A stretch of 64,000 bases of DNA from assembly GCA_947450325.1 (NCBI GenBank), contig CANFUT010000007.1, positions 1 to 64,000 on the forward strand, given 5' to 3'. The notes below the pieces were generated by a model. The model had not been told where the DNA came from. It was given only the letters and a program-made list of their open reading frames with translations, and ran no database searches. Positions 9,559-40,987 of the stretch are shown one piece after another; the first letter of the stretch is position 1; each line of letters starts with the position of its first letter. The position numbers and the translations under genes were made by a program. The DNA comes from Flavobacteriia bacterium. GTDB lineage: Bacteria > Bacteroidota > Bacteroidia > Flavobacteriales_D > Crocinitomicaceae.

Positions 9559-9581
9559 TTAAGGGTCATTTTGACACTAAG
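9559..9581. promoter_or_regulatory. Starch-regulon operator upstream of the SusE/F-like gene
   Basis: The half-sites are TTAAGGGTC (6 of 9 to consensus) and GACACTAAG (9 of 9) around a 5-bp spacer. It ends 37 bp before the start codon at 9619. A TTTG inside the site (9570-9573) could be the -33 element. No good -7 box was found. It is one of seven copies in the window; the others are at 14200, 23489, 24337, 33809, 39568 and 52541. Confidence 0.65.
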
Positions 9582-9618: not shown

Positions 9619-10221
9619 ATGAAAAAAATCTTTACTATTTGTGCTGCGTTGTTCTTAGGAACTACTGCTTTTTCTCAAACTGTAGGTCTTATCGGACCAT
9701 CTGTACCAGGAAATACTTGGGCTGCAGATACTACAATGAACTCAACTGATAATGAAAATTTCACATTGACTTTGGATTTATTAGCTGATCAAATCAAATT
9801 CAGACAAGATGATGCTTGGACTGTAGCTTGGGGTGATGGTGGTTTCCCTTCTGGAACAGGTGATGTTGCTGGTGGTTCACCAAACATTAACGTACCAGTT
9901 GCTGGAAATTATACAGTAACTTTCGTATTGTCTACAGCTGCTTACAATTTCCAATTGAACACTGCAAGTATTTCTGAAAATTCTGCAAACTTGAATTTGT
10001 CAGTTTACCCAAATCCATCTAACGAGTCTGTTAATTTCAGATTTGATGCATCTAACGAAGCTACAATCACTTTGTTTGATTTAGCTGGAAAACAAGTTTC
10101 TTCTAAAACTGAGACTGCACAAACAATCAACGTTAACACTGAAAACTTGAATGCTGGTATCTACATGTACCAAGTTAAAGTTGGAAACAACGTTACAACT
10201 GGAAAAATTTCTAAAAAATAA
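9619..10221 (+). CDS. Small secreted SusE/SusF-like starch-binding protein with T9SS sorting domain
   Basis: The 200-residue protein has a signal peptide (about 1-19, ending AFSQ). One beta domain of about 100 residues opens with VGLIGPSVPGNTWAADTTM and contains KFRQDDAWTVAWGDGGFPSGTGD, the pattern of one SusE/SusF-type starch-binding module. It ends in a type A T9SS sorting domain (from LNLSVYPNPSNESVNF). Typical SusE/F proteins are multi-domain lipoproteins, so this is a one-domain version using T9SS. It should bind alpha-glucan at the cell surface. An operator precedes it, and a large GH13 amylase follows after a terminator. Confidence 0.7.
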   Translation: MKKIFTICAALFLGTTAFSQTVGLIGPSVPGNTWAADTTMNSTDNENFTLTLDLLADQIKFRQDDAWTVAWGDGGFPSGTGDVAGGSPNINVPVAGNYTVTFVLSTAAYNFQLNTASISENSANLNLSVYPNPSNESVNFRFDASNEATITLFDLAGKQVSSKTETAQTINVNTENLNAGIYMYQVKVGNNVTTGKISKK

Positions 10222-10318: not shown

Positions 10319-13090
10319 ATGAAGAAGTTATTATTCATTTTCGGTTTTTTCGCCTTGCATTTTAGTACAGTTGCTCAAGTAATTAGTGTTTCACCTGCTT
10401 TTCCAACAGCAAGTGATGTTGTCACAATTACATACAAAGCAACAGAAGGAAACGCAGCATTGACAGGAGTTTCAACCATTTATGCACACATGGGTCTGAT
10501 TACCAGCACCAGTACTTCAAATACTGATTGGCAATATGTTCAAGGTGTTTGGGGAACAGCGGATGCAAATGTTTTGATGACTAATATGGGTAATAACACG
10601 CATCAAATTACAGTTGATATTAGTACTTTTTACGGTTTTCCAGTCGGAACAGTTGTCAATAAATTAGCTTTTGTATTTAGAAATGCAGCAGGTACTATTG
10701 TTGGTAGAAATGCAGACGGAAGCGATATACTTTATGATGTTTATCCTTCAAATGCTGGTTTTCTCTCAAAAATATTTGAACCAACTTTGAATACAGTGGT
10801 CAATTTAAACGACCAATTGCCAATCGTTGGAAAAACGAATCAATCGGCAAACTTAACTTTAAAAGACAATGGAGTTGTTGTAAACTCAGTTAATAATTCC
10901 ACAGTGTTAAATTATACAATTTCGGCTAACACTCCAGGAGATCATATTGTAGAATTTGTTGCTGATAATGGCAGTGAAATACAAATTGATACTGTGATGT
11001 ATGTGGTAAATCCTACCATTAATTCGATAGATCCACCTGCAAATACAGTTGATGGCTTGAATAGAATAGATGATAATACCATTCTTATAAGACTTTTTGC
11101 TCCTGAAAAAAACAATGTTTATGTAATCGGAGATTTCAATGATTGGAGTCCAAGTATCACCAATCACATGAATCGTTCAATTGACGGAAACACTTGGTGG
11201 CTGCAAATTTCAGGATTAAGTCCAGATATTGTTTATGGTTATCAATTTTACATTGATGGCAATTTGAAATTGGCAGATCCATATTCGATGTTAGTGGCAG
11301 ATAAATCAAATGATGTAAACATTCCTTTGGCTAATTATCCTGATCCCTATGTTTATCCAACAGATTTAACTTCAGGTTTTATCTCGCTTTTCAAGACAAA
11401 TGATGTTGCTTTCAATTGGCAAAATGACGGTTTTACGAAGCCTGAGAAAAAGGAATTGGTTATTTATGAATTATTGGTAAGAGATTTTATTGCGTCGCAC
11501 GACTATCAAACCTTGGCTGATACGATTCAATATTTAGCGAATATGGGAATCAATGCCATCGAATTGATGCCGGTGAATGAATATGAAAACAATGAAAGTT
11601 GGGGTTACAATCCAAGTTTTCACATGGCGTTGGATAAGTATTATGGAACACCAGAGCATTTTAAATCTTTCGTAGATATTTGTCATGAAAAAGGCATCGC
11701 GGTGATTATGGATATTGCACTAAATCATGCTTTTGGACAAAATCCAATGGTAAATATGTATTGGGACGCGGCAAATAATAGAACAGCGGCAAATAATCCT
11801 TGGTTCAACGCAGTTTGTCCGCACGATCCATATTGCTGGGGATACGATTTGAACCATGAAGCACAGGCTACCAAAAATTACATAGATAGAATCAATCACT
11901 ACTGGTTAAATGAATTCCATGTCGATGGTTTTAGATTTGATTATACAAAAGGATTTGTAAATAGTGCTGCTTCTTATAGTAATACTAGAATTGACATTTT
12001 GAAAAGAATGGCTGATACAATTTGGGCGACTCATCCAGATGCATACATTATTTTGGAACATTGGGCTGATAACAGTGAAGAAAAAATTCTTTCTGATTAT
12101 GGAATGATGCTTTGGGGAAATTTGACTTATGAGTATCACCAAGCAATGAAAGGAAGTGGTTCTAATTTTTCAAATGGAATTTATTCCGCAAGAGGATGGA
12201 CAAATCCTTATTTGGTCACTTATATTGAAAGTCACGACGAAGAACGTGGCGTTTATGACGCAATGCAATTTGGAAGTGTTTCAAATTTAGATCATACAGT
12301 AAAAAATAATTTGCCAGTTTGTTTGTTACGTGCACAAACCGCTGCAGTATTGTTGTTGACTTCTCCTGGTCCAAAAATGATTTGGCAATTTGGAGAATTA
12401 GGGTATGATTATTCTATCGATTATGGTTGTAGAATTTGTAATAAACCAATTCTTTGGAATTATTTTTTACAAAACGATAAAAAGCAGTTGTATGATGTTT
12501 ACAGTGCGACAATCAAATTGAAAACACAATATGAAGTGTTTAAATCAGGAACATTGCAGTATTCTTTGTCTTCAACAGTGAAAAGATTAACTTATACGCA
12601 TCCAACAATGGATGCAATTGTTTTAGGAAACTTTGCGGTACAAAATTCACTTACTTCCGTTAGCTTCCCGCAATTAGGTTGGTGGTATGAATATTATACC
12701 GGTGATAGTTTGCAAATAACGCAAGCAACAACAGCCATTACCTTAAAACCTGGGGAATATAGAGTTTATACAACAACCAAATTGACAAAACCAGAGATAC
12801 TTTCAACGGTTGGTTTAGAAGCCTTGTTAGAAAGTAGTTTTGATATGAACGTTTTTCCAAATCCAACGGTGAATGAAATTCAAGTACAGTTCGATTTGAA
12901 AGCTGCAGGAGATGTTAATCTAAAAGTGATTGATTTAAAAGGAAATTTGGTTTATGAAAAAGATTTAGCAAATAATAATGCAGGACTTTTTAAATATAAA
13001 ATCGATGTTAACTCATTGGAAAAAGGAACTTATTTGATTTTGGTTCAAACAGATCAAGGTTTCACCAATGAAACTTTTGTAAAGGAATAG
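10319..13090 (+). CDS. Surface GH13 alpha-amylase/pullulanase-type enzyme with CBM48-like module and T9SS domain
   Basis: The order in 923 residues is: signal peptide (about 1-19); beta-rich N-terminal domain (20-150); Ig-like strand region (155-230); CBM48-like module (about 245-335, YVIGDFNDWSP); GH13 catalytic barrel (about 375-740); beta domain; type A T9SS sorting domain (from MNVFPNPTVNEIQ near 844). All four GH13 regions are present: DIALNH (465-470), GFRFDYTKG with nucleophile D541, ILEHW with acid/base E580, and ESHDEE with D640. It should cleave alpha-1,4 or alpha-1,6 glucan bonds outside the cell; the CBM48-like module hints at branched substrates. It lies after the SusE/F-like gene in the starch island. 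Confidence 0.9.
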   Translation: MKKLLFIFGFFALHFSTVAQVISVSPAFPTASDVVTITYKATEGNAALTGVSTIYAHMGLITSTSTSNTDWQYVQGVWGTADANVLMTNMGNNTHQITVDISTFYGFPVGTVVNKLAFVFRNAAGTIVGRNADGSDILYDVYPSNAGFLSKIFEPTLNTVVNLNDQLPIVGKTNQSANLTLKDNGVVVNSVNNSTVLNYTISANTPGDHIVEFVADNGSEIQIDTVMYVVNPTINSIDPPANTVDGLNRIDDNTILIRLFAPEKNNVYVIGDFNDWSPSITNHMNRSIDGNTWWLQISGLSPDIVYGYQFYIDGNLKLADPYSMLVADKSNDVNIPLANYPDPYVYPTDLTSGFISLFKTNDVAFNWQNDGFTKPEKKELVIYELLVRDFIASHDYQTLADTIQYLANMGINAIELMPVNEYENNESWGYNPSFHMALDKYYGTPEHFKSFVDICHEKGIAVIMDIALNHAFGQNPMVNMYWDAANNRTAANNPWFNAVCPHDPYCWGYDLNHEAQATKNYIDRINHYWLNEFHVDGFRFDYTKGFVNSAASYSNTRIDILKRMADTIWATHPDAYIILEHWADNSEEKILSDYGMMLWGNLTYEYHQAMKGSGSNFSNGIYSARGWTNPYLVTYIESHDEERGVYDAMQFGSVSNLDHTVKNNLPVCLLRAQTAAVLLLTSPGPKMIWQFGELGYDYSIDYGCRICNKPILWNYFLQNDKKQLYDVYSATIKLKTQYEVFKSGTLQYSLSSTVKRLTYTHPTMDAIVLGNFAVQNSLTSVSFPQLGWWYEYYTGDSLQITQATTAITLKPGEYRVYTTTKLTKPEILSTVGLEALLESSFDMNVFPNPTVNEIQVQFDLKAAGDVNLKVIDLKGNLVYEKDLANNNAGLFKYKIDVNSLEKGTYLILVQTDQGFTNETFVKE

Positions 13091-23511: not shown

Positions 23512-23540
23512 CGAATATATAAATTTCTTTTTTACATTTG
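23508..23540 (+). promoter_or_regulatory. Promoter of the NUDIX regulator gene
   Basis: The -33 TTTG (23508-23511), 21-bp spacer and -7 TACATTTG (23533-23540) are a complete match to the Bacteroidota promoter pattern. The predicted start of transcription is close to or at the ATG at 23544, so the mRNA may be leaderless. Confidence 0.65.
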
Positions 23541-23543
23541 TAT

Positions 23544-24287
23544 ATGCAAATTAAAAATAAGCATCAAATTAACCATCGAATTTCTACAGATTGTGTGATT
23601 TTCGGTTTTGATTTCAATCAATTGCGCGTGCTTTTGATTGAACGTCAGCCTGTTGAAGGTGTTCCGCAGATGATGGCACTTCCAGGCGATTTGATTTTTG
23701 AGGAAGAAAACTTAGACATGGCTGCAGGTCGAGTTTTGAAAGAATTAACTGGATTGGAAGATATTTTTCTAGAACAAGTTGGTGCTTTTGGTGATCCAAA
23801 TCGTGTTAATAAACCCAATGATAAAAAATGGTTGCAAGCTGTTCGTCAAGACCCAGATGCAAGGGTAATTACTGTTGCCTATTACACTTTGGTAAATATG
23901 AATGATTATGAACCACAACCTTCTTCCTTCGCTAAATCAGCTTCTTGGATTTTAGTGGATGACATCACAGAATTGGCATTTGACCACTTTGAAATTTTTC
24001 AATCAGCTTTGAAAAAACTGAAAGATAAAATCAATACACAACCTATCGGATTCAATCTTCTTCCTGAAAAATTTACTTTTTCACAATTACACAAATTGTA
24101 TGAGTCAATTTTGGGTAATGAATTGGACAAGAGGAATTTTCGTAGAAAAATGTTGAAGCTAAATATCGTCGAAAGTTTGGATGAAAAGCAAGAAGGTGTG
24201 CCTCATAAACCTTCCCAATATTTCAAATTTAACGAAGAAAATTACTTAAAATTACTTGAAAAAGGTTTCAATAATTTTGGTTTTTAA
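23544..24287 (+). CDS. NUDIX-domain/winged-helix transcriptional regulator (NrtR/AraR type), proposed starch-regulon regulator
   Basis: The 247-residue protein has an N-terminal NUDIX fold (about 12-160) and a C-terminal winged helix (FNLLPEKFTFSQLHKLYESILG, then LDKRNFRRKML) typical of NrtR/AraR-type regulators. The NUDIX box GDLIFEEENLDMAAGRVLKELTGL lacks key acidic residues: RE is RV and EE is EL, so hydrolysis is unlikely and the domain probably senses a ligand, such as a sugar, sugar phosphate or ADP-ribose derivative. ATG 23544 is preferred to the in-frame TTG at 23538. The operator at 23489-23511 overlaps its own promoter and its neighbours are the genes it would control. Target assignment is inference. 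Confidence 0.88.
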   Translation: MQIKNKHQINHRISTDCVIFGFDFNQLRVLLIERQPVEGVPQMMALPGDLIFEEENLDMAAGRVLKELTGLEDIFLEQVGAFGDPNRVNKPNDKKWLQAVRQDPDARVITVAYYTLVNMNDYEPQPSSFAKSASWILVDDITELAFDHFEIFQSALKKLKDKINTQPIGFNLLPEKFTFSQLHKLYESILGNELDKRNFRRKMLKLNIVESLDEKQEGVPHKPSQYFKFNEENYLKLLEKGFNNFGF

Positions 24288-29110: not shown

Positions 29111-30694
29111 TTAATATCCAGGATTCTGAATTAGATTTGGATTCAATACGATGTCTGCTGTTGGAATTGGGTACAAATTGTAATTCGAAGAAACTCCAAT
29201 ACCTACTAAATCACCTCCTTTAAATGGCCAAACATACGTTGAAGTTGTAAACAAATTGAAACGAATCAAATCTGTTCTTCTTGTACATTCCCAACTTAAT
29301 TCTCTTGCTCTTTCGTCGATGATATCATCTAAAGTAACAGAAGTAAAATTGAAGCTTGAATTACCGTATGCTCTTTGACGCAATTGATTTACATAACCCA
29401 AACCTTGGCTCACGTCACCTCCACCTCTTAATGCAGCTTCAGCATACATCAAATAAGCATCTGCCAATCTGAACATTGGAAAATCAATATCCGTTTGTGC
29501 ACTCAATGCATTTCCTGAACCGTTAGCTCCAGTAGTTGTTTTGTTTTTATATTTTGGAAAAGCATATCCTTCAGCGAACGTTGACAAATTCGTAATGTCT
29601 TTTGATTGTCCATCTCTGTAGAACAAAAATCTACCATCTAAAGTAGAATCTGGAAATTTATTTACAAAAGTTGAAGTTGTTCTTAAACCACCCCAAGCGC
29701 CATTCACACCATAATCTGCAGGAACCATTGTTCCACCGATTGCTGCATTTACTAAGAAAGTAGTACCTCCCCAACTTTGCGCATAAACTCCATCATAAAT
29801 AACAGGGAAAATAATTTCTGGTGACGTATTATTGTCAGCTAAGAAAATATCTTGGTAATTATCATCTAATGAATAAGAACCTGAATTGATTACTTTTAAA
29901 CTGTAAGTAGCACATTCAGTATTTTTTGGAATACCTGTGTAAACTTCTGCATTCAAGTACAATTTAGCTAATAAAAATTGATCAGCAACTTTATTTGCTC
30001 TACCGTATGGAGCAGCACTTGGAGCTAACAATTCATTTTCGATAGCCAATAATTCAGACTCAACATAAGAAAACAATTCAGAACGCGTAATTCTTTTTGG
30101 TTGAAAAGCACCTACTTCGTCTTCTTCAGTAACGAAAGGAACATTACCAAATAAATCCATTGCATGGTAGTAACTCAACGCTCTTAAAAAGCGTGCTTCA
30201 CTTCTGTAAACTCTGATGGTTGCTTTTTGTGATTCAGAAAATCCTCTATCACTCATTTTTGTTTCAGAAGTTTCTCTTATGAATTCATTACACAAAGTGA
30301 TTTGGTAAAAGATTCTATAGTACATTCCTTTGACGAATGAAGTTTCTGGAGACCAGTTGATTTTATTCATTTCAGGAATTCCTGGATCGTTCCATCCACA
30401 AACAACTTCGTCAGTTGGTAATTCTTGTAGATTAAACAATACACGAACGTACGCAGAAAATCCTTCATCAATACCTGCAATGTCTCCATTCCCAGCAGGC
30501 CCTTGTAATCCAGTCATTGATAAACCAGAATAAAGTTTTGCAACAACATGAATATAGTTGTCTGGATTTCCGTAAACAGTTTCAGTGTTTAATCCATATT
30601 TTGGTTTTAGATTGAGTTGTTTTTTACAAGAATTCAATCCAACAATCCCACCAAGTGTGACTGCAACCAATAAAATTTGTGTGATTTTTTTCAT
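29111..30694 (-). CDS. susD: SusD/RagB-family starch-binding outer-membrane lipoprotein
   Basis: The 527-residue protein has a lipoprotein signal with Cys23 (LNSC) and a RagB/SusD body: QPKRITRSELFSYVESELLAIENEL, ARFLRALSYYHAMDLFGNVPFV, and a C-terminal DIDFPMFRLADAYLMYAEAALRGG...LRQRAYG...DDIIDERARELSWECTRRTDLIRF. It should bind alpha-glucan oligomers at the outer membrane and act as the lid of the SusC channel. It is 11 bp after susC. The starch context sets the substrate; the sequence alone does not. Confidence 0.92.
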   Translation of the reverse strand: MKKITQILLVAVTLGGIVGLNSCKKQLNLKPKYGLNTETVYGNPDNYIHVVAKLYSGLSMTGLQGPAGNGDIAGIDEGFSAYVRVLFNLQELPTDEVVCGWNDPGIPEMNKINWSPETSFVKGMYYRIFYQITLCNEFIRETSETKMSDRGFSESQKATIRVYRSEARFLRALSYYHAMDLFGNVPFVTEEDEVGAFQPKRITRSELFSYVESELLAIENELLAPSAAPYGRANKVADQFLLAKLYLNAEVYTGIPKNTECATYSLKVINSGSYSLDDNYQDIFLADNNTSPEIIFPVIYDGVYAQSWGGTTFLVNAAIGGTMVPADYGVNGAWGGLRTTSTFVNKFPDSTLDGRFLFYRDGQSKDITNLSTFAEGYAFPKYKNKTTTGANGSGNALSAQTDIDFPMFRLADAYLMYAEAALRGGGDVSQGLGYVNQLRQRAYGNSSFNFTSVTLDDIIDERARELSWECTRRTDLIRFNLFTTSTYVWPFKGGDLVGIGVSSNYNLYPIPTADIVLNPNLIQNPGY

Positions 30695-30705
30695 TATTCT
30701 AAGTA

Positions 30706-33700
30706 TTAAAAATCAAATGTTAAATTCAATGAGTAAACTCTTGGTCTTGGATAAAGATTGTTATCAATTCCACCATTTACCTCAGGATCTTGACCTGAAT
30801 ATTTGGTAATAACAAATACGTTTTGAACTGTTAAAGCTGTGTTCAAACCAATTTTGTTTTTAGTCCATTTCATTTTTCCAAATTTATATCCAATATTGAT
30901 GTAATCCATTCTGAAGAAATTTGCTTTTTCCAAATAATGGTCGCTCAATAATTGGCGCTCAGTTGTTTTTTGCATTTCTTCTTCGAAATATAAATTTGAA
31001 ATGTTACTCAAATATCCTTGTGTTCCATTGATCGCTTGGAAAGTTCCGTTATTAGAATGGATATTGTTGTAATTGTATCCACCTGTTTCAGCGCGTCCAG
31101 AAAGTCCAAGGAACCATTTTTTGTAAGTCAAATTTAAAGATAATCCAAAGAACATATTTGGTGCAGCTTTGTGGAATAAATATCTATCATCGATATTGAT
31201 GATTCCATCGCCGTTTCTGTCAACAAAAGCGTCAGTGTCTTTGTATTTTCCTAAAGAAGTATTTGATGGATCTTTGTAAGCACCAACTTCAATAGGTTTA
31301 CCATTTGCATCATAAATTTGCTCATATACAAAATAAGAGAAAGTTGGGTTACCTACTTTATTTGTTTGAACATTGTTACCAATACCACCTTGAATACCAC
31401 CAGCTAAGATTCCTGGAGAATTTGGATCGTCAATTTGAGACAGTTTAGTGATTTTATTTTGGTTGTATGTTGCATTCGCACTCAAATCTAATCTCAAGTC
31501 TTTTTTAGCAATCAACCCAAAGTTACCACTGATTTCAATACCGCGGTTTCTCATTCCACCTACGTTAGTTAAAATTTGATTGGTAAAGTTTGTACCAGCA
31601 GGAACAGGAACAACCGCCAACAAGTCATAAGTCGATTTTTGATATACATCAATTGCTCCACTGATTCTGTCATTTTTAAATCCAAAATCAACTCCTAAAT
31701 TGATACTTTTTGTTTCTTCCCATTTCAATTTACTATCAAATCCACTTGGTCTGTACACTGTGTAATATTGTCCACCGAAAGCATATTGAGCGGTTGTTGC
31801 TCCTTCAAAATAGTTTGAGATATATGCGTAATCACCGATTCCGTCTTGTTGTCCAACAACACCATAACCAGCACGTACTTTCAACATATTTAACCATTTT
31901 GCTTTTTGCATGAATTTTTCATTTGAAACAATCCAAGCTGCCGAAACTGATGGGAAAAATCCCCAACGCGTATCAGGACCAAATCTAGAAGAACCATCTC
32001 TTCTCAATGTAGCATTAAATACATATTTATTATTGTAAGTGTAAATTCCACGTCCGTAGAAAGACAACAATGCATTTTCTGTGAAAGAAGGATTAGCAGC
32101 AGGAATTCCAATGATAGAATCTTTTGCTAAGTTGTAAGTTGCATTGTTTGGGCTTGAACTTTGCCAGTGTTGGTATGTGTAACCACCTGTAATGTCAATG
32201 TAGTGTTTTGATTTTTTGTCCGCGTTATTGTAATTCAAATATGCATCAATCACATTGTTTGATTTACTTGATCTGTAAACACTGTAGCTACCACCCGAAT
32301 AATATCCAGCAGCAGAATTAGCATTTACTCTCACTTCACCGCTTCCTTCTGAGTAGTCAGCACCTACGTTTACAACCGCTTTGATTTGAGGGAAGAAATG
32401 CAATTTGTAAGTCAATTTTAGGTTTCCGATGTAACGATTTACTTTACTTTCGTCATCTCTTTGATTTATTAATCCTAACGGATTTTTTGGAGCCAATGTG
32501 TTTGGTTTACCTGCTTTCATCCATTCAAAATATCCACCTACTGCATCATCACCTGTCCTAACTTGTTGTGTTGGATCAAAATATGCTGCTCCTAGTGCAC
32601 CTCTGTCAGCGAAAAAAGAACTTGTTTGAACGATACGATTGTTGAATTCAAGTTGTAAATGTTTATCGAAAAATGAAGGAGTCAAGTTCAATGCAACAGA
32701 TGTTCTATTGAATTTATCTCGTAACAATAATCCATTTTCCAATCTAGATCCGAATGACAAACGATAAGGTAGTTTTTTAATCCCTCCAGTAACTGAAACA
32801 TTATTGTCAGTAACAAAAGCTGCTCTGAAAACTTCTTTTTGCCAGTTTGTATTTGCTGTTCCTAAAAGTGCTTTTTGTGCTGCAGTTCCTCTTGTGTTAA
32901 CTAAGTCTCTGTATTCATCACCCGTCAAAACATCTGCATATTTTGCGATTGTTGAAATAGATTGTTTGGTGTCTAAAACAACGCTCAATTTACCAGTTCC
33001 TCCATCGCCTTTCTTAGTTGTAATCAAGATTACCCCATTTGCACCACGAGAACCATAGATGGCTGTTGCAGAAGCATCTTTTAAAATTACGAATGAAGCA
33101 ATGTCATTTGGATTTATCAGAGAAAGTGGATTAGCAGCTCCAGAGATTCCTCCATTATCCAATGGCACACCATCTACTACGATTAATGGGTCATTACTTG
33201 CATTAATTGAAGTTCCACCTCGTAAACGGATTGTACTTCCTGATCCAGGTGCACCGTCATTCGAATTGATTTTTACTCCGGCAACTTTACCTCTAATCAA
33301 TTGTTCAGGAGTAGCAACAGATCCAGAAGCGAATTCTTTTTCGCCAATAACGGTTGCTGAACCTGTTAAATCTTTGGTTCTTGTGGATCCATATCCGATC
33401 ACAACCAGTTCTTCAACCTCCTCAACTTCTTCTTTCATGCTTGCATCAACTATCAAATCTTTACCAGCAACAACGGTAATTTTTTGAGTAACTGTAGCAA
33501 AACCTGCAGCTTTGAATACTAAATTGTATTCACCAGCTTCAACAGTTTTGATTTCGTAGAATCCAGTCGCATCCGACGTACCTCCTTTGAATTTTCCTTC
33601 AAGGGTTGCCTGTGCTTGATCAATCGGCTTTCCCCCCAAATCTCTAATCATCCCTTTTACCGTGGAAGTTTGACTAAAAGTCGTTCCAACTGAAAAAAGA

Positions 33701-33744
33701 ATGAAAGAAAGAAAAAGCAAAGCATTTGTAACTTTTCTTTTCAT
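30706..33744 (-). CDS. susC: SusC/RagA-family TonB-dependent oligosaccharide transporter
   Basis: The 1012-residue protein has a signal peptide (about 1-25), a carboxypeptidase-D-like domain (about 29-105), a TonB-box-like EELVVIGYG segment, the SusC plug (about 120-230, LIRGKVAGVKINSNDGAPG, IRLRGGTSINASNDPLIVVDGVPLD) and a 22-strand-type barrel ending in F. It should import maltooligosaccharides with TonB energy. An operator at 33809-33831 and a -7 box TAAATTTG (minus strand 33797-33790) precede it. GH31, GH13 and CotH-like genes lie just upstream on the same strand. Confidence 0.93.
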   Translation of the reverse strand: MKRKVTNALLFLSFILFSVGTTFSQTSTVKGMIRDLGGKPIDQAQATLEGKFKGGTSDATGFYEIKTVEAGEYNLVFKAAGFATVTQKITVVAGKDLIVDASMKEEVEEVEELVVIGYGSTRTKDLTGSATVIGEKEFASGSVATPEQLIRGKVAGVKINSNDGAPGSGSTIRLRGGTSINASNDPLIVVDGVPLDNGGISGAANPLSLINPNDIASFVILKDASATAIYGSRGANGVILITTKKGDGGTGKLSVVLDTKQSISTIAKYADVLTGDEYRDLVNTRGTAAQKALLGTANTNWQKEVFRAAFVTDNNVSVTGGIKKLPYRLSFGSRLENGLLLRDKFNRTSVALNLTPSFFDKHLQLEFNNRIVQTSSFFADRGALGAAYFDPTQQVRTGDDAVGGYFEWMKAGKPNTLAPKNPLGLINQRDDESKVNRYIGNLKLTYKLHFFPQIKAVVNVGADYSEGSGEVRVNANSAAGYYSGGSYSVYRSSKSNNVIDAYLNYNNADKKSKHYIDITGGYTYQHWQSSSPNNATYNLAKDSIIGIPAANPSFTENALLSFYGRGIYTYNNKYVFNATLRRDGSSRFGPDTRWGFFPSVSAAWIVSNEKFMQKAKWLNMLKVRAGYGVVGQQDGIGDYAYISNYFEGATTAQYAFGGQYYTVYRPSGFDSKLKWEETKSINLGVDFGFKNDRISGAIDVYQKSTYDLLAVVPVPAGTNFTNQILTNVGGMRNRGIEISGNFGLIAKKDLRLDLSANATYNQNKITKLSQIDDPNSPGILAGGIQGGIGNNVQTNKVGNPTFSYFVYEQIYDANGKPIEVGAYKDPSNTSLGKYKDTDAFVDRNGDGIINIDDRYLFHKAAPNMFFGLSLNLTYKKWFLGLSGRAETGGYNYNNIHSNNGTFQAINGTQGYLSNISNLYFEEEMQKTTERQLLSDHYLEKANFFRMDYINIGYKFGKMKWTKNKIGLNTALTVQNVFVITKYSGQDPEVNGGIDNNLYPRPRVYSLNLTFDF

Positions 33745-33808: not shown

Positions 33809-33831
33809 TTTAATGTCAAAATGACACTAAG
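33809..33831. promoter_or_regulatory. Starch-regulon operator upstream of susC
   Basis: The half-sites are TTTAATGTC (7 of 9) and GACACTAAG (9 of 9) with a 5-bp spacer. On the minus strand the -7 box TAAATTTG (33797-33790) follows after 11 bp. The site ends 6 bp before the stop codon of the GH31 gene, so susCD has its own control point even if read-through from upstream occurs. Confidence 0.75.
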
Positions 33832-33836
33832 AAAAT

Positions 33837-36233
33837 TTACCAATTTATTTTTAAAGTTGAAACAGTTTGTTCTAAATTGGTAATGATAGTAAGGGTTTTA
33901 GATAATTTGTTGTATTGAAATTTAATTTCTTTATTATCTAATGTAATCGATTTTGGCTCATTTTCGATGTTATGAATCACCATTTCGTACCTTCTTTTGG
34001 CTGAAACTTGATTCTTTCCAGGTGATTTTTGTTCAAAATTGATTGTAAAATATTTTTCTTCTTTTTTGTATTTGAAATATTCAATTCTTGATTGATAATT
34101 CATATTTAAAGCAGGGGTTTTTCCATCATCTGTGAAATAGATTCCATTGCTCTGTGGTAATTCTTTCTTGTAATAAAAGTGAATAGAAATTTCATTTTCA
34201 CTATAATCGTCCGTGTTTTTGAGTCCTTTGGTCATAGGAATAAAAGCACCTGCTCTCACGAAAGTCGGTATATATTCAATATTTGTTTTGATTTCAGCAG
34301 TGGAACCTCTTTTATGTAATTCTCCAGTGTAAAAATCAAACCAATCAGATGTCATTGGAAAATATACTTCTTGGCTTATTTTTCCTTTTTCTAAAATCGG
34401 TGCAACCAAAATTTCATTTCCCCATAAATAATTTTCCTTGTTGGTCAACAATTTTGGATTGTTATTTTCTTCAAACATTAATGGACGCATCAATGGCAAT
34501 CCATACTTACTATTTAAATATGCCATCGTATAATTGTAAGGCAACAAATCATACCTTAATTGAATTGCATTTGTGACAATTCTCTTGGTGTTTTCATCTT
34601 TAAATACTGGCTCTGATGCTAATTGTTCTTGCGCATGAGGTCTGAAAATTGGTTGAAAAACGCCATATTGCAGCCATCTGATGTATAATTCATTGTCGTC
34701 ATAAGTTCCTGCAAATCCTCCTAAATCTGAATGCATATAACCGATTCCTTGCATTCCCATTTGCAATGCAATTTCTGGTTGTGCTTGCAAACCACCCCAA
34801 GTTCTATTCACATCTCCTGACCATGGAATCATTCCAAATCTTTGTGATCCAGAGTAACCTGCACGCATCAAAATAAATGGTCGTTCATCTGGGTAATTTT
34901 TTTTGTAACCCTCATGAATCAATTTTGCCCAATCGTGTCCATAAATATTGTGAACAGTATTTGCTTTTCCTACCGCATGAATTAGATTGTTTGGATGTAC
35001 TTCTGGTTCACCTAAATCTCCCCAAAAACCTTTTACACCTTGATCGTGCATTCCTTTGTAGATATTCCAAAACCAATCATTTCCTGATTTTGCATAAATA
35101 TCAATCAAACCGGTATTTCCAAAATAGAAATTGTACACAAAAGGATTTCCTAGGCTATCTTTTGCTAAAATGTTTTTTTCTACTGCTTCTTTCCATCGAT
35201 TCGAAGTATTCAAAATAAATGGCTCTGAAATCAACACGGTTTTGATTCCTTTTTGTTTGAAGTCTGAAATCATTTTCAATGGAGTAGGGAATGAATCTTT
35301 GTAAAATTCTAGATTTCCCATTGTTCCTTGAATTTCTTTTCCAAACCAGTATAGGTCCAAAATCACAGCATCTAATGGGATAGAATCTGAGATGAATTTA
35401 TTGACCGTTTGCTCAGTTTCCTGTTGAGAATGATAACCAAATCTAGAAGAAAAATTTCCAAATGCCCATCTCGGAGGAAGCGGCTGTGTACCTGTTAGTT
35501 GTGTGTAGTTGAAAATGATTTCATTCCAACTGCCTCCAAAAATAATTTGATAAGTTTTATTACCACCAGTGGTTTCGTAAGCAATTGTATTGTCTTTTTT
35601 TGAATCTAAATCTAAAAATCCAGTTTGTGGATTGTCAAAGTGAATCAGGTATTTTTCAGATGACATTACAATTGGCATGCAAAAATTCATCAAAGCAGAA
35701 GTAGATTCGTACCCGTAGTTGGCTTTGTTATATAATTCCAAACGATTTCCTCTTCGGTTCATGCCCAATGCCCTCGCACCGCCACCATATAAAACTTCAG
35801 TTGGATTGATATTGAAATTAATTGCTTCATGTGTAGCCGTTTTGTAATAACCTATTTTTTCAGAGATCACTTGTTTTCCTCCCTGAAAGTATTGAACTTG
35901 AAAAGGCTTTTTTTGGATCTTTATGTCGATTCTTCCAATTGTAAGTTTTAATACAGAATCGCTGTCGATGCTTTTGAATTCTTCTCTTGAAAGTGGTTGA
36001 ACAACTGCGTGCGATTTCGCCTCTACTGTTTCTCCTTTCGGAACAAAAGTTGTTTGAATCACCATCGGACGGTAGTTTGAAAAAATGTATTTTCCATCAT
36101 TTGTTTCAACTTCTATTCCCTCGTCAGATTTCTTGTAACTAACAAATTTTCTAGTGCTATTTTGACTAAAAAATGATGTGTAAATTGCTAAAAAGCAAAA
36201 TGTAATAATTGCGTTTTTTAATTTCATTTTCAT
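33837..36233 (-). CDS. Periplasmic GH31 alpha-glucosidase
   Basis: The 798 residues have a signal peptide (about 1-24, ending FFSQ), a galactose-mutarotase-like N domain and the GH31 barrel. The nucleophile is D406 in GFWGDLGEP; the acid/base is D474 in PWSGDVNRTW; RPFILMRAGYSGSQRFG and YMHSDLGGF also fit. No T9SS domain is present, so it should act in the periplasm and release glucose from maltodextrins or branched oligomers. Its ATG overlaps the end of the upstream GH13 gene by 4 bp, and the two share an operon with the CotH-like gene. Confidence 0.92.
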   Translation of the reverse strand: MKMKLKNAIITFCFLAIYTSFFSQNSTRKFVSYKKSDEGIEVETNDGKYIFSNYRPMVIQTTFVPKGETVEAKSHAVVQPLSREEFKSIDSDSVLKLTIGRIDIKIQKKPFQVQYFQGGKQVISEKIGYYKTATHEAINFNINPTEVLYGGGARALGMNRRGNRLELYNKANYGYESTSALMNFCMPIVMSSEKYLIHFDNPQTGFLDLDSKKDNTIAYETTGGNKTYQIIFGGSWNEIIFNYTQLTGTQPLPPRWAFGNFSSRFGYHSQQETEQTVNKFISDSIPLDAVILDLYWFGKEIQGTMGNLEFYKDSFPTPLKMISDFKQKGIKTVLISEPFILNTSNRWKEAVEKNILAKDSLGNPFVYNFYFGNTGLIDIYAKSGNDWFWNIYKGMHDQGVKGFWGDLGEPEVHPNNLIHAVGKANTVHNIYGHDWAKLIHEGYKKNYPDERPFILMRAGYSGSQRFGMIPWSGDVNRTWGGLQAQPEIALQMGMQGIGYMHSDLGGFAGTYDDNELYIRWLQYGVFQPIFRPHAQEQLASEPVFKDENTKRIVTNAIQLRYDLLPYNYTMAYLNSKYGLPLMRPLMFEENNNPKLLTNKENYLWGNEILVAPILEKGKISQEVYFPMTSDWFDFYTGELHKRGSTAEIKTNIEYIPTFVRAGAFIPMTKGLKNTDDYSENEISIHFYYKKELPQSNGIYFTDDGKTPALNMNYQSRIEYFKYKKEEKYFTINFEQKSPGKNQVSAKRRYEMVIHNIENEPKSITLDNKEIKFQYNKLSKTLTIITNLEQTVSTLKINW

Positions 36234-38107
36234 TTGATTTCAATAATCATGGACGTTTTGGCGCCAATAATTAATTTTTCGTTTGCTAAATTAATATTGT
36301 TTCCAGTGATAATATCTTTACACATTTTTCCAGTTGAAATTACTTCTCTGAAGCGATTCAATGTAAGAATTTGTTGATCGTTAGAATTATTTACAATCAC
36401 CATTACTTTCTCCGTTGGCAAAATTCTAAAAAAGACATACAGGTTATTTTCTGGAAGAAATTGAATCGTTTTTCCCTCTTGAACCGCTTTGCTATTTAAA
36501 CGCCAATTTAGGATTTTTTTTGTAAAATTGAAATATTCATCTTGCGTTTGATTTCTACCAGATTGTGAATTTTCATTTTTTGAATCTTTTGAAACGAAAG
36601 CATTGTCTTTGTCTTCTTTCCAACCACCAGGAAAATCGTGTCTAATGTCTGCATCTCCCAAATTTTTGTTCCCTTTCATTCCGATTTCTGTTCCATAGTA
36701 GATCTGAGGAATTCCGCGGACAGTTGCCAAAATGGTCATAGCCAATTTATAGTCAGCAATATTAGCATAGATTTCATTGAAACGTTGTGTGTCGTGGTTT
36801 TCCAAAAATAATAAGATATTATTTGGATTGTCGTAAAGAAAATCGTTGACGAAATTTTCATAAACACGAACCATTCCTTGGTCCCAATTTTGATTTTTTT
36901 CATTAAATGCTTGATTCAATGCGTCTAATAAAGTAAAATCCATTACTGATGGCAAATGCGAATTGTAGGATTGAATGGCAGCTATTGGACTGTTTTTCTG
37001 CCAATATGATTGATGTGCTTGATCATGCATCCAAACTTCACCAACGATATTCGTATTTGGATATTCTTCCATGATTTTCTTTGTCCATTTTGCGATTCCT
37101 TCTTTGTCATTGTAACTATAGGTATCAACGCGCAATCCATCAAGATTTGCATATTCCATCCACCAAATGGTGTTTTGAACCAAATAATTTAACACCAAAG
37201 GATTACTCTGATTTAAGTCCGGCATTGATCTTACAAACCATCCATCAACACACATTTTTTGGTCTATTGCGGAAACATTTGGATCCATTTGTGTCGACAT
37301 TCTGTAATTCGATTGAGCATATCCTGGAAATTGATGAATCCAAGTATAAGTCGGAAGGTCGTTCATCATCCAATGTCTAGAACCCCAATGATTTGGAACG
37401 ACATCTTGAATTACTTTCAATGATTCTTTATGGGCTTCTGTAACAAAATTTTTGTATTCTTCATTGGTTCCATATCGTGGATCAACACGATACAAATCGC
37501 TTTGTCCGTAAGTATGGTAGCTGTAGGCAGAATCATTGTCTTCCAACAAAGGCGTTGGCCAAATCGTTGTCGCGCCTAAATCTTTGATGTAATCTAAATG
37601 ATCAACAATTCCCTGAATATCACCTCCATGTCTTCCTCCAGGAAGCGAACGATTCATTTTTTCTACAACTGTTGGGTCATTGTCGTTGGAAATTTTTCCG
37701 TTGGCAAATCGATCGGGCATCAACAAATAAAGAACATCTGAATTATTGAAACCCATTCGTTCTTTTGAATTTTCAGCTCTTGTTTTGATTTCGTAATCAA
37801 CCTGATACTTCACTTTTTTGTTTTCCAAAAGATGAAAAGTGTACGTTCCGGCTGCTATATTTTTCGTCTCAACGGTTACAAAAAGGTAATTTGGATTTTC
37901 AGTTTTTTGGACTCCAAGAATGGTTAATCCTTTTGCGTCAATAGTTAAATTACTGATGTTTTTTCCGTGTAACATGATTTCAACTTCATGATGTTCCATT
38001 CCTGCCCACCAATTTGGTGGTTCGATGTGGGCTAAAGTTTGATTTTTTTGTGCTAATGAGTATACACTTATAATTGAAAAAATAAGGATAAATACGTTTG
38101 ATTTCAT
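36230..38107 (-). CDS. susA: Periplasmic GH13 neopullulanase/cyclomaltodextrinase (SusA-like)
   Basis: The 625 residues have a signal peptide (about 1-19) and the N-terminal cyclomaltodextrinase domain (about 22-108, HIEPPNWWAGMEHHEVEIMLHG), then the GH13 barrel with DVVPNH (235-240), GLRVDTYSY with nucleophile D328, VGEVW with E357, and FLENHD with D439, then a C-terminal domain typical of these enzymes. It should degrade maltodextrins and cyclodextrins in the periplasm. It lies 12 bp after the CotH-like gene and overlaps GH31 by 4 bp. Confidence 0.92.
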   Translation of the reverse strand: MKSNVFILIFSIISVYSLAQKNQTLAHIEPPNWWAGMEHHEVEIMLHGKNISNLTIDAKGLTILGVQKTENPNYLFVTVETKNIAAGTYTFHLLENKKVKYQVDYEIKTRAENSKERMGFNNSDVLYLLMPDRFANGKISNDNDPTVVEKMNRSLPGGRHGGDIQGIVDHLDYIKDLGATTIWPTPLLEDNDSAYSYHTYGQSDLYRVDPRYGTNEEYKNFVTEAHKESLKVIQDVVPNHWGSRHWMMNDLPTYTWIHQFPGYAQSNYRMSTQMDPNVSAIDQKMCVDGWFVRSMPDLNQSNPLVLNYLVQNTIWWMEYANLDGLRVDTYSYNDKEGIAKWTKKIMEEYPNTNIVGEVWMHDQAHQSYWQKNSPIAAIQSYNSHLPSVMDFTLLDALNQAFNEKNQNWDQGMVRVYENFVNDFLYDNPNNILLFLENHDTQRFNEIYANIADYKLAMTILATVRGIPQIYYGTEIGMKGNKNLGDADIRHDFPGGWKEDKDNAFVSKDSKNENSQSGRNQTQDEYFNFTKKILNWRLNSKAVQEGKTIQFLPENNLYVFFRILPTEKVMVIVNNSNDQQILTLNRFREVISTGKMCKDIITGNNINLANEKLIIGAKTSMIIEIK

Positions 38108-38119
38108 TTATGTGAGTTT

Positions 38120-39550
38120 TTAATGGGCGTAAACTTTGTGGTGATTTCCAAATTGATCTTCAACAATCATCCATTGATTCGTAGAATGGATATCAATCGA
38201 TTGACCTAATAAATTGTATGCTTTTACGACTAGCATTTGATTGTCAGCGTTGATATTTTCAATTCCATTAAAACATGGGTTTTGAATTGCAGATGTATTT
38301 GTTTGTTGATCTGCAGCATTTCTTCTATCAATTAAAAAAGACTCAATTGAAGTAGTAATATGAGAACCCCAAGTGTCAGTAATTGCATATTGAAAATCAA
38401 AATTATTAAATCCGTAGTCTAATGTTCTGTAAGTATCATCGTAGGCAGCTTGTTCGATCATAGCTTGTTTTGCTTCCAAGGCTATTACCAAATTTGCTGG
38501 ATTGTAAAAAGTGGAAATATAATTATCGATGTATAGAGAAAACTGATTCCTGTAATACGGAACATTGAGTATTTTGGTGTAAAGTGGTCTTGGATCATTA
38601 TTGGAAGCCCAATTGTAAATATCTCGATTCGCCCAATCAATTCCAGACCAATCAATTCCGAAGGTATTGTCCATGTCATATTCTAAAAAAACAAATTTCT
38701 GATCTGAAGGACGTTGATACAAATAATAATTGTTTTTATTGTAGGCATAACCATCCCAATGTCCTGCAAGAACCTCTACTGCAAGGGTTCTTAAATACAT
38801 ATCAACATCAAAAACAGTTGCAATTTCACATGCAAAATCGGTTGAATTTGTATTGTTTAAAACCGCTAAAAAATGAATTAATCCACTGTAATCATTGGCG
38901 CTTTTATTGGTGCTTAATTCAAACAATGTTTCGTAAGGAGGTTGACTGGTTCCTGAATAAAGCATGTTAGCACCATAGTTGGCTTTATATAAATTTCCTG
39001 CGTCGTTTAATGGGAATCTTGTTTTGATGAAGTTTTCATCGATGTGTTCTGTATTTAAATACAAACCTTTGTATTCATTGTTGATGTATAGTTTTACATA
39101 GCTTTTTCGTGAAGCAGGTAGTTCAGCTGATTTCAATATGTCAAGCGCAAGGTAATTTCTCAAAATCGAAACATCGTTGTGTTGACCGTTCAGATTTAAT
39201 TTTTCTAAACCTTGCCATTTTACCCCTGAAACAAAAGTATTGAACGAGATTTTAAAGGATTTTTTCTCAGCATATCTTGATGTATTTCCACGCAGTCTAA
39301 ATCCAACATTTGTTATTATCGTTGTATCAATCGAGGTTCTATATTCAAAGTCGGCAGGATATTCATGATCTGAACTTAAGTTGGATTGCAATAACATACT
39401 CGCAATGCTATCTGGATCTATTGTAATGTAAACCGAAGCGACTTCAGTCTGTAAAAAAGCATGATTGTCCGCCGGGTGAACGGTTTGCGCAAAAAAAGAT
39501 TGTATCAGTGTTACAAAGACAAAGAATACGACAAGTAGTTTTTTTATCAT
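38120..39550 (-). CDS. Secreted CotH-kinase-family protein at the head of the amylase operon
   Basis: The 476-residue protein has a signal peptide (about 1-21, ending FFAQ). The body matches the CotH family, an atypical kinase fold: GFRLRGNTSRYAEKKSFKISF near 83-103, LNLNGQHNDVSILRNYLALDIL near 116-137, TEHIDENFIKTRF and FLEYDMDNTFGIDW. The last about 60 residues (MLVVKAYNLLGQ and later) may be a degenerate T9SS-type tail. CotH proteins phosphorylate extracellular proteins in spore formers and occur in cellulosomal proteins. The role here is unknown. It is the first gene of the operon with susA and GH31, right after an operator, so starch-linked regulation is likely. Confidence 0.8.
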   Translation of the reverse strand: MIKKLLVVFFVFVTLIQSFFAQTVHPADNHAFLQTEVASVYITIDPDSIASMLLQSNLSSDHEYPADFEYRTSIDTTIITNVGFRLRGNTSRYAEKKSFKISFNTFVSGVKWQGLEKLNLNGQHNDVSILRNYLALDILKSAELPASRKSYVKLYINNEYKGLYLNTEHIDENFIKTRFPLNDAGNLYKANYGANMLYSGTSQPPYETLFELSTNKSANDYSGLIHFLAVLNNTNSTDFACEIATVFDVDMYLRTLAVEVLAGHWDGYAYNKNNYYLYQRPSDQKFVFLEYDMDNTFGIDWSGIDWANRDIYNWASNNDPRPLYTKILNVPYYRNQFSLYIDNYISTFYNPANLVIALEAKQAMIEQAAYDDTYRTLDYGFNNFDFQYAITDTWGSHITTSIESFLIDRRNAADQQTNTSAIQNPCFNGIENINADNQMLVVKAYNLLGQSIDIHSTNQWMIVEDQFGNHHKVYAH

Positions 39551-39567: not shown

Positions 39568-39590
39568 CTTAGTGTTAATTTTACACTTAG
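39568..39590. promoter_or_regulatory. Starch-regulon operator upstream of the CotH/susA/GH31 operon
   Basis: The half-sites are CTTAGTGTT (8 of 9) and TACACTTAG (7 of 9) with a 5-bp spacer. On the minus strand a promoter precedes it: -33 TTTTTG (39629-39624), 19-bp spacer, -7 TACTTTTC (39604-39597, one mismatch). The operator begins 6 bp after the -7 box, near the expected start of transcription, which predicts repression. Confidence 0.75.
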
Positions 39591-39753
39591 ATTCTCGAAA
39601 AGTATGTATTATTTTTCGTTTTTCAAAAATTAATTTCCACGGATGACAAATTAAAAAGTCATTTTTGTTTCAAATTTACATAAACTATTTTTTTTGTTTT
39701 CTGTCAGCTTGTCAGCTATTTGCATCAGGCACGTTGTTTGAAGAAATAGACGA

Positions 39754-40560
39754 GTGAAAAATAAAAATCAACATCAATTTGGAAATAATTTGGAGACTGT
39801 TTTGTATCCTGCTTTGTTGTTGGCATTGATGTGGTCGTTTTATTTGTTGGAGAGAATCACCACTTATGATTTTTACAAATGGGGCATTTTCCCCAAAGAT
39901 TTGTTGGGATTGCGCGGAATAATTTTTTCACCACTTTTACATTCTCCTTCGGATCTTGGTCATATTTTAAATAATTCAGGACCTATCGCCATTCTTTTTG
40001 GCGCATTGATTTATTTCTACAGACAAATTGCTGCTGAAATATTTTTCTATTGTTGGTTATTAACTGGATTTTTTGTTTGGGTTTTTGCAATCAATACGGG
40101 TTCATATCACATTGGAATGAGCAGTGTGATTTATGCTTTAGCAGGATTTCTATTTGTAAGTGGAACAATTAGAAAATATCGGCCATTGCAAGGAATTTCG
40201 CTTTTTGTGATATTTGTTTATGGAAGTTTGATTTGGGGTATTTTCCCTATGCAAGCCAAAATTTCATGGGAAGGACATTTAGCTGGTTTGATTACAGGAG
40301 TCACCTTGGCTTTTCTCTACAAATCGAAAGGTCCTCAAGCGCCTAAATATCAATACGAAATTGAAAAAGAAATGGGCATTGAGCCACCAGACTTAGAGGG
40401 CCAATGGTTAGAAAACATCCGATTGGCTAATGAAAGAGCTGAAGAAATCAGACGCCAACAAGAAGATTTTAAAATTATTTACGACTACATTTCGAATCAA
40501 GAATCTACTCCAAAACCACCTTCGGACGAAAAGAATCTACCAAGCGACCCAAACTTTTAG
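39754..40560 (+). CDS. Rhomboid-family intramembrane serine protease
   Basis: The 268-residue protein has about six transmembrane segments. HIGMSSVIYALAG near 119-131 carries the likely nucleophile S123 and WEGHLAGLITG near 172-182 the His H175, the rhomboid dyad. HILNN near 70-74 is the conserved His/Asn region. A soluble, charged C-terminal tail of about 75 residues follows. It should cleave membrane-protein segments in the inner membrane; substrates are unknown. The start codon is GTG, as no ATG precedes the first helix. Its last 56 bp overlap the SixA gene on the opposite strand. Confidence 0.85.
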   Translation: MKNKNQHQFGNNLETVLYPALLLALMWSFYLLERITTYDFYKWGIFPKDLLGLRGIIFSPLLHSPSDLGHILNNSGPIAILFGALIYFYRQIAAEIFFYCWLLTGFFVWVFAINTGSYHIGMSSVIYALAGFLFVSGTIRKYRPLQGISLFVIFVYGSLIWGIFPMQAKISWEGHLAGLITGVTLAFLYKSKGPQAPKYQYEIEKEMGIEPPDLEGQWLENIRLANERAEEIRRQQEDFKIIYDYISNQESTPKPPSDEKNLPSDPNF

Positions 40561-40987
40561 AAGTGTTTTTCCAAGATTCAGCTTCAAATTCAATGCAACA
40601 GTAACCACACGTTTGTAAACCAATGTATTCATCTGTAAAATAAGATGCTAATTCGGAAATTCCGTCATTGTGTCCAATCAACAATACATCTTCTTTACCA
40701 CCTAATTTCCAAATAAAGTCTAATAGCGACATTAAGTCAGCATGATAAAGTTGATCGGTTAATCTCAAATCACGAAATTCAAAGTTTTCTTGAACAATTT
40801 TTGCTGTTTGCTGGGTTCTTGCACTTGTAGAACAGTAGACTGTTATTTTTCTGGAAAGTTTTTCATTCAAATAAATTCCCATTTTTTTCGATTGTTCAAT
40901 TCCTTTTGGAAGTAAAACGCGGTCAAAATCTTTTTGAGATGGTGCAATCACCTGTGTTTTGGCATGTCTTAAAATGTGCAATTTCAT
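40505..40987 (-). CDS. sixA: SixA-type histidine phosphatase
   Basis: The 160-residue protein starts MKLHILRHAKT, with the phosphohistidine RH (R7-H8), and has VYCSTSARTQQTAKIV and LLIGHNDGISELASYF with the second His. This is the short branch-2 histidine phosphatase pattern of SixA, which removes phosphate from phosphohistidine proteins. The physiological target is unknown. The coding end lies inside the 3' end of the rhomboid gene by 56 bp. Confidence 0.85.
   Translation of the reverse strand: MKLHILRHAKTQVIAPSQKDFDRVLLPKGIEQSKKMGIYLNEKLSRKITVYCSTSARTQQTAKIVQENFEFRDLRLTDQLYHADLMSLLDFIWKLGGKEDVLLIGHNDGISELASYFTDEYIGLQTCGYCCIEFEAESWKNTSKSLGRLVDSFRPKVVLE

Follow-up and report, generated by a model that had tools for sequence, protein, structure and literature searches.

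Why should a gene for a CotH-type kinase stand at the head of a starch operon in a member of the Crocinitomicaceae? The original prediction saw such a gene leading a susA/GH31 operon in the 64,000-nucleotide stretch of Flavobacteriia DNA analysed here (the window). Our answer comes in parts of unequal strength. A role of this CotH protein in starch use is well supported, since its neighbourhood is strongly conserved and the gene is co-regulated with starch genes. The reading that we favour, and consider only just probable, is that of a CotH-type kinase which is exported, has its predicted active site intact and works as a dedicated component of the Sus-type starch-utilisation machinery.

The CotH protein and its operon

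The CotH open reading frame has exactly the predicted coordinates, matches PF08757 and comes first in a same-strand run. The features concerned are the following.

38120..39550, minus strand: CotH-family protein of 476 aa, encoded by the leading gene of the starch operon (ORF call, Pfam, PDB sequence search)
38381..39298, minus strand: CotH kinase domain, Pfam PF08757, residues 85-390 (Pfam; fold comparison)
38753..38755, minus strand: codon of D266, which pairs with D224 of the 5jd9 chain and is equated with B. subtilis D228 by motif and spacing
38675..38677, minus strand: codon of D292, which pairs with D247 of the 5jd9 chain and is equated with B. subtilis D251 by motif and spacing
39488..39550, minus strand: signal peptide as read from the sequence (residues 1-21), the mature protein starting at Q22
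38123..38239, minus strand: short C-terminal tail module, residues 438-476, common to other exported proteins
36230..38107, minus strand: GH13 enzyme of the SusA/neopullulanase type, with Cyc-maltodext N and C domains (ORF call, domain scans)
33837..36233, minus strand: GH31 family enzyme, alpha-glucosidase-like (ORF call, domain scans)
30706..33744, minus strand: SusC/RagA TonB-linked outer-membrane protein (domain scan)
29111..30694, minus strand: SusD-like lipoprotein (domain scan)
9619..10221, plus strand: SusE/F-like protein with a T9SS tail, operator at 9559-9581
10319..13090, plus strand: pullulanase-like GH13 (CBM48) with a T9SS tail

On the minus strand, CotH is followed after a 12-bp gap by the susA-type GH13 gene, which overlaps the GH31 gene by 4 bp; an operator, SusC and SusD come next. 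With a SusC/SusD pair, a GH13 and a GH31 gene on one strand, this is a Sus-like locus. It shares the SusA-type GH13, GH31, SusC and SusD with the canonical Bacteroides sus operon (susA-G), and a SusE/F-like protein is encoded elsewhere in the window. Unlike the canonical system, it has a pullulanase with a T9SS tail and probably an NrtR-type regulator rather than SusR. The canonical operon is not known to contain CotH. Adjoining the CotH operon, a rhomboid-type protease gene (39754-40560, plus strand) is convergent with a histidine-phosphatase (SixA-like) gene (40505-40987, minus strand); the two overlap by 56 bp (40505-40560), and the same neighbours occur in two congeneric genomes.

The protein matched PF08757 with an E-value of 8.9e-61 and 206.6 bits, the cut-off being 23.8 bits (profile positions 2-300 of 322), and its sole PDB sequence relative at E <= 1 was B. 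cereus CotH (5jd9/5jda; 3.1e-22, 25% identity). An AlphaFold (AF2) model built from 42 sequences (pLDDT 89) aligned with 5jda, the Mg/AMP structure of B. cereus CotH, at Z 40.0 and an rmsd of 2.3 A over 347 residues, and Foldseek matched the CotH fold at E 4.0e-23. The next fold matches outside CotH were PI4KII (Z 12.7), then CtkA, HipA and Fam20 kinases (Z about 10-12). The Fam20 secretory kinases are alike in their distant fold match (Z about 10-11) and extracytoplasmic setting, but identity in the fold alignments is 6-10% and no sequence match was found at E <= 0.001.

The residues K96, K97, N125, D126, E168, D266, N274, D292 and D294 were invariant in 161 of 161 aligned rows, a set in which some genomes are present twice (unnamed and named sets); 80 named loci had been fetched by two patterns, one of them containing WD[GD]Y, and the other 80 by a pattern-free genome search. 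B. subtilis CotH is described as a Ser/Thr protein kinase whose D228Q and D251A variants are inactive (excerpts of PMC7821199). We equate D266 and D292 with these two positions because both Bacillus proteins have the same 23-residue spacing, rather than by aligning the B. subtilis protein; the spacing in the window protein is 26, i.e. a 3-residue insertion. Loss of the catalytic residues, on which the original prediction was prepared to fall, is therefore excluded: the sets examined all keep them without change, and the model has the CotH kinase fold with its predicted active site intact. The window protein thus shares with the Bacillus spore-coat kinase (5jd9/5jda) the kinase fold, the Pfam CotH domain and the aligned Asp residues of the inactivation sites, and differs from it in its signal peptide, its extra C-terminal tail and its setting in a Bacteroidota starch operon.

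With seven PF08757 loci in the source genome, six besides the one studied here, CotH as such is not rare in this organism; the window protein belongs to a distinct group apart from the others. Its Pfam scan contained neither a carbohydrate-binding domain nor a dockerin. We also considered W301, W306 and W314 as a starch-specific glycan site and rejected the idea, since phylum homologues away from starch genes mostly keep W301 and W306.

Export is predicted from the N-terminus, where 159 of 161 aligned rows have Q22; an N-terminal Gln after signal cleavage is usual in Bacteroidota. The source genome encodes SprA of the T9SS (SprA_N match). An ordinary T9SS type A domain at the C-terminus of the window protein is unsupported, as no Por_Secre_tail or T9SS signal was found there in Pfam or NCBIfam even at E <= 1. 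Among eight long homologues, a T9SS tail exceeded the Pfam cut-off in six (L119, L122, L133, L138, L139, L155) and fell below it in L131 and L147. The window protein ends instead in a 40-residue module, unrecognised by Pfam and NCBIfam at E <= 1, which a FISUMP protein and an exported protein of 259 aa from the source genome also have at their C-termini. Besides CotH, the module was noted at these places:

L277:799-1629: protein with the tail module
L278:868-1647: protein with the tail module

Counting CotH itself, the module has six matches in G052, six in G225 and nine in G311; five other family genomes have a single match each, and G207 and G220 have none. It is possibly a short secretion or sorting tail.

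Linkage and co-occurrence with starch genes

Among 200 family genomes, 48 including the source carry a CotH orthologue of at least 240 bits. The 47 others span 245 to 897 bits, and the remaining matches listed reach 158 bits or less, among them fragments of split orthologues (157.9 bits in G171, 117 in G165). Neighbourhoods were fetched for 40 of these 47. The susA gene lies directly after CotH in 39 of the 40, on the same strand and starting 1300-1600 bp past the CotH start; the sole exception is G052 (locus L076), where the two genes are on different contigs. A pullulanase gene stands directly upstream of CotH in 27 of the 40, which is not its place in the source genome, and a 41st locus (G173) runs from pullulanase through CotH and susA into the contig end.

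Calling susA at E <= 1e-120 gave 49 of the 200 family genomes. Both genes were present in 45, susA only in 4, CotH only in 3 and neither in 148 (Fisher 2e-36, uncorrected for phylogeny). Presence and absence also go together within genera: in g1, G000, G015 and G050 have both genes and G035 neither; in g11, G046 has both and G010, G030, G059 and G070 neither; in g15, G061 has both and G014, G034 and G049 neither. CotH without susA was recorded in G118, G163 and G173, the last being a contig-end effect. The four genomes with susA and no CotH orthologue, G002, G036, G126 (g22) and G158 (g18), indicate that CotH is not essential for this enzyme set, and the last two run counter to the pattern within genera. 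The CotH slot of the starch operon in G002 holds a gene (L256:5267-8524) for a protein of 1086 aa that has SprB repeats, a CHU_C (T9SS) tail and a CBM match just below cut-off.

The T9SS pullulanase was present in 18 of the 18 CotH-orthologue genomes searched; in 12 of them the sequence covered on either side of CotH, cut short by a contig end in several, contained no starch gene, G300 has susA 6.4 kb away, and in the remaining five the CotH neighbourhood was outside the survey. It was found in 4 of 44 genomes without CotH (G216, G223, G230, G239; Fisher 4e-12, uncorrected for phylogeny), 18 of the 44 being family genomes confirmed as non-matching and 26 being taken as such by their absence among the matches listed. 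In genera of other families, G225 and G247 have both CotH and pullulanase and G238 neither, as G217 and G229 have both and G237 neither.

Wider searches at 1e-50 gave a match in 163 genomes out of 399 for the order and in 50 out of 395 for the phylum. Of the 97 order matches that fall outside the family, 34, chiefly ones with high scores, were examined; GH13, GH31 or GH65 genes lay within about 7.5 kb in 20 of them, in differing gene orders (12 of 20 and 8 of 14, the latter hand-counted), and near none of the other 14. The neighbourhood survey that the original prediction proposed thus bears out a conserved association of CotH with susA in the family and, for 20 of the 34 outside-family order loci examined, with glycoside hydrolase genes. 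The usual arrangement there is NrtR-CotH-pullulanase-SusC: in the first 20 loci, NrtR is directly upstream in 10 and pullulanase directly downstream in 10. An NrtR-type gene directly upstream of CotH was seen in L119-L124, L127, L129, L130 and L135, most of which also have glucokinase, PGM and GH65 genes in the vicinity; in L267 and L268 CotH lies beside NrtR and glucokinase. Many outside-family order members are open frames of 740 aa or more, and four long order members that were scanned consist of CotH, LTD and a T9SS tail (one tail below cut-off).

Starch enzymes were near in 39 of the 80 named loci (41 of 80 had none), and in 21 of the 57 that do not duplicate loci counted already. Two Saprospiraceae records (L211, L235) read SusC-SusD-pullulanase (GH13)-CotH, and in a Marinilabiliales record (L213) pullulanase is just upstream of CotH. 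Phylum-level homologues, which share the kinase core, were near starch genes in 0 of 20 cases, and the unlinked CotH genes had no obvious shared neighbour as judged by gene lengths and strands. CotH is therefore a regular member of Sus-like loci among relatives (the family, 20 of the 34 order loci examined and the two Saprospiraceae records), and not at phylum level. The 20 phylum homologues, 14 of 34 order loci and 41 of 80 named loci away from starch genes argue that the core function of CotH is not tied to starch.

As a control, 20 paralogues (six from the source genome and 14 from the family) included none with a clear GH neighbour, the marginal cases being a 41-bit GH13 match in L255, a 70-bit PGM match in L252, and L236, which has little flank on one side. 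In a tree of 99 rows made by a quick method, where a row counted as linked if it had a GH gene no more than 7.5 kb away or two genes out of NrtR, glucokinase and PGM, starch linkage falls into separate clades, and the starred branches force at least six gains or losses (mean of 30 when shuffled). Starch linkage is accordingly not one inherited block; a 14-row unlinked clade (13 plus one undecided) is nested among linked ones.

An operator shared with sugar metabolism

A strong operator before CotH had also been predicted. The regulatory features of the window are these.

39568..39590: operator palindrome upstream of CotH, 23 bp, one of seven in the window
33809..33831: operator upstream of SusC
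23538..24287, plus strand: Nudix regulator of the NrtR/AraR type that may recognise the operator
39596..39618: another palindrome, CGAAAA-N11-TTTTCG, next to the operator on its upstream side and present once in the window

The pattern CTTAGTGT-N7-ACACTNAG, written from the 39568-39590 site and searched with up to 3 mismatches, occurs at seven places in the window. Counted per strand this gives 14 matches, whereas 100 shuffles averaged 0.86 and never exceeded 5; the site before CotH is kept in two congeneric genomes. The operator thus holds up as described. The 23-bp palindrome, of the CTTAGTGT-N7-ACACTAAG type, stands before the SusE-like gene (9559), GAPDH (14200), glucokinase and NrtR (23489), G6PD (24337), SusC (33809) and CotH (39568), and between the ETF and pyruvate dehydrogenase genes (52541). 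All seven sites therefore adjoin starch or central-carbon genes, with GAPDH, glucokinase, G6PD, ETF and pyruvate dehydrogenase named by reading the translations. The palindrome appears to join starch uptake and the glucokinase, G6PD, GAPDH and PDH/ETF genes into one regulon, which, given the sites before central-carbon genes, is wider than starch. Its regulator is probably the NrtR/AraR-type protein encoded at 23538-24287, because a site lies beside its own gene and NrtR and CotH are adjacent in relatives.

A matrix made from the six other window sites was used to score the regions upstream of CotH in relatives. Scores upstream of the CotH start were at least 20 in L038, L039, L040, L045, L047, L048 and L057, 13.7 in L043 and 16.6 in L044. 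In L041 the called ORF is too long, and a site of 21.8 falls inside it; by a seven-site matrix, L042 and L046 have a site at a like place. Loci with SusE-like and pullulanase genes before CotH showed no operator just before CotH, and do have operator matches elsewhere in the locus. Over 140 loci there were 165 matches of 10 or more against 23 in mononucleotide shuffles, a count in which some genomes appear twice, scores of 10-12 may be chance and sites were partly placed by eye. In G052, where CotH is unlinked from susA, a 22.8-bit operator directly abuts the CotH ATG. None of the 334,554 positions in the 20 CotH loci of the paralogue control reached 15 bits. These paralogue loci replaced an earlier null drawn from all other ORFs of the same loci, which was contaminated by genuine starch promoters, 92 of its 1164 scores being at least 15. 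Genome-wide, a loose form of the pattern occurred at 9 places against 6 for the reversed control, a comparison that is weak alone.

We rejected CGAAAA-N11-TTTTCG as the operator of the regulon, since it has one copy in the window, as chance gives. This palindrome is unchanged in one congeneric genome and has one change in a second, and by the Bacteroidota consensus it may overlap the promoter. A sigma-70 promoter scan gave 3 matches against 1.7 expected, and a terminator scan gave none.

Possible roles of the CotH protein

In the mechanism that we propose, CotH would be made together with the starch enzymes under a starch/glucose operator, exported by its signal peptide and probably displayed through a C-terminal sorting tail. 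There it would phosphorylate, or add another nucleotide-derived group to, a co-secreted component of the starch apparatus. The best candidate substrates would be the T9SS pullulanase and the SusE-like protein, as both are exported and often accompany CotH. The suggestions of the original prediction, that CotH might modify the amylases or bind glycan, are guesses. Three points weigh most against our proposal: the supply of nucleotide beyond the inner membrane, the large number of homologues that are not near starch genes, and the SprB-repeat protein that replaces CotH in G002. ATP is normally not available outside the cytoplasm, so an exported kinase would need an extracytoplasmic source of nucleotide.

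Participation of CotH in extracellular glycan degradation is already known from cellulosomes. CotH domains occur there and in the enzyme complexes of anaerobic fungi, with a role described as unclear in the excerpts of PMC8665504 and PMC12484212, and C. thermocellum has an LTD-LTD-Fn3-CotH protein (excerpts of PMC6083626). These proteins (C. thermocellum CseP, Cthe_0239; dockerin-CotH of anaerobic fungi) likewise place CotH in an extracellular polysaccharide-degrading system, and the architecture of Cthe_0239 (LTD, LTD, Fn3, CotH) recalls the LTD plus CotH of the longer relatives of the window protein. The window differs in having starch and Sus/T9SS instead of cellulose and dockerin/cohesin, and its CotH, free of a dockerin, sits in the starch operon under the operator of that operon. 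The original prediction called a role of CotH in a Bacteroidota glycan-use operon unfamiliar. Next to machinery that degrades glycans CotH is familiar from cellulosomes, where dockerin-CotH is known; for Sus-type operons, the titles and abstract openings of the open-access papers listed gave no report.

The leading rival explanation, which we regard as unlikely though deserving serious weight, makes CotH a structural or binding part, i.e. a surface scaffold or adhesin for the enzymes or for starch whose nucleotide chemistry is incidental. Published views of cellulosomal CotH include a structural function, to which kinase regulation is the alternative, and binding to the cell wall (in the excerpts of PMC8665504 and PMC12484212). 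The SprB-repeat/CHU_C protein in the CotH slot of G002, with its sub-cut-off CBM match, fits a surface-binding role as well, and so do the LTD domain and T9SS tail of the long homologues and the little ATP expected outside cells. A pure scaffold would not need the invariant active-site residues, however, and the window protein is without a Pfam carbohydrate-binding domain. We find it less likely still that CotH is a general kinase of surface proteins (T9SS cargo or cell envelope), switched by sugar through the shared regulator, with a starch link that is regulatory and not mechanistic. The operator before glucokinase/NrtR, G6PD, GAPDH and PDH/ETF (names by reading) would suit it, as would the phylum homologues, none of 20 near starch genes and with no common neighbour visible by gene lengths; against it speak the close, specific and repeated adjacency to GH13 and SusCD genes in several gene orders and the presence or absence shared with susA or the T9SS pullulanase inside genera.

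Some Fam20-type kinases act on sugars, and Fam20B and POMK are kinases that phosphorylate one. The fold common to these kinases (Z about 10-11) and the tight amylase linkage could accordingly point to a glycan kinase acting here on starch or malto-oligosaccharide, which we judge improbable: the B. subtilis homologue is a protein kinase (excerpts of PMC7821199), and the scanned operon proteins match no phosphoglucan-handling family. Least credible of all is a chance neighbour carried along with the operon, an idea that could draw on the seven CotH genes of the genome and that is excluded by the paralogue control (0 of 20) and by linkage conserved across families, with 39 of 40 family loci, several gene orders and an operator on an unlinked copy.

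We return, then, to an exported kinase dedicated to the Sus-type system. That the Sus-type starch systems of several Bacteroidota families have their own secreted kinase is a broader claim, which we advance tentatively and place a little short of probable. If true, extracytoplasmic phosphorylation, or another nucleotide-derived modification, of surface starch proteins would be an unrecognised layer of control in glycan use; it would parallel the cellulosomal CotH and require a usable supply of nucleotide outside the inner membrane. Gene order, operator and co-occurrence link this CotH with a pathway that is compact and well understood and that has about six partner proteins. The role of secreted CotH kinases in glycan degradation thereby becomes a small, direct experiment, and the locus raises the question of how a kinase works outside the Gram-negative cytoplasm.
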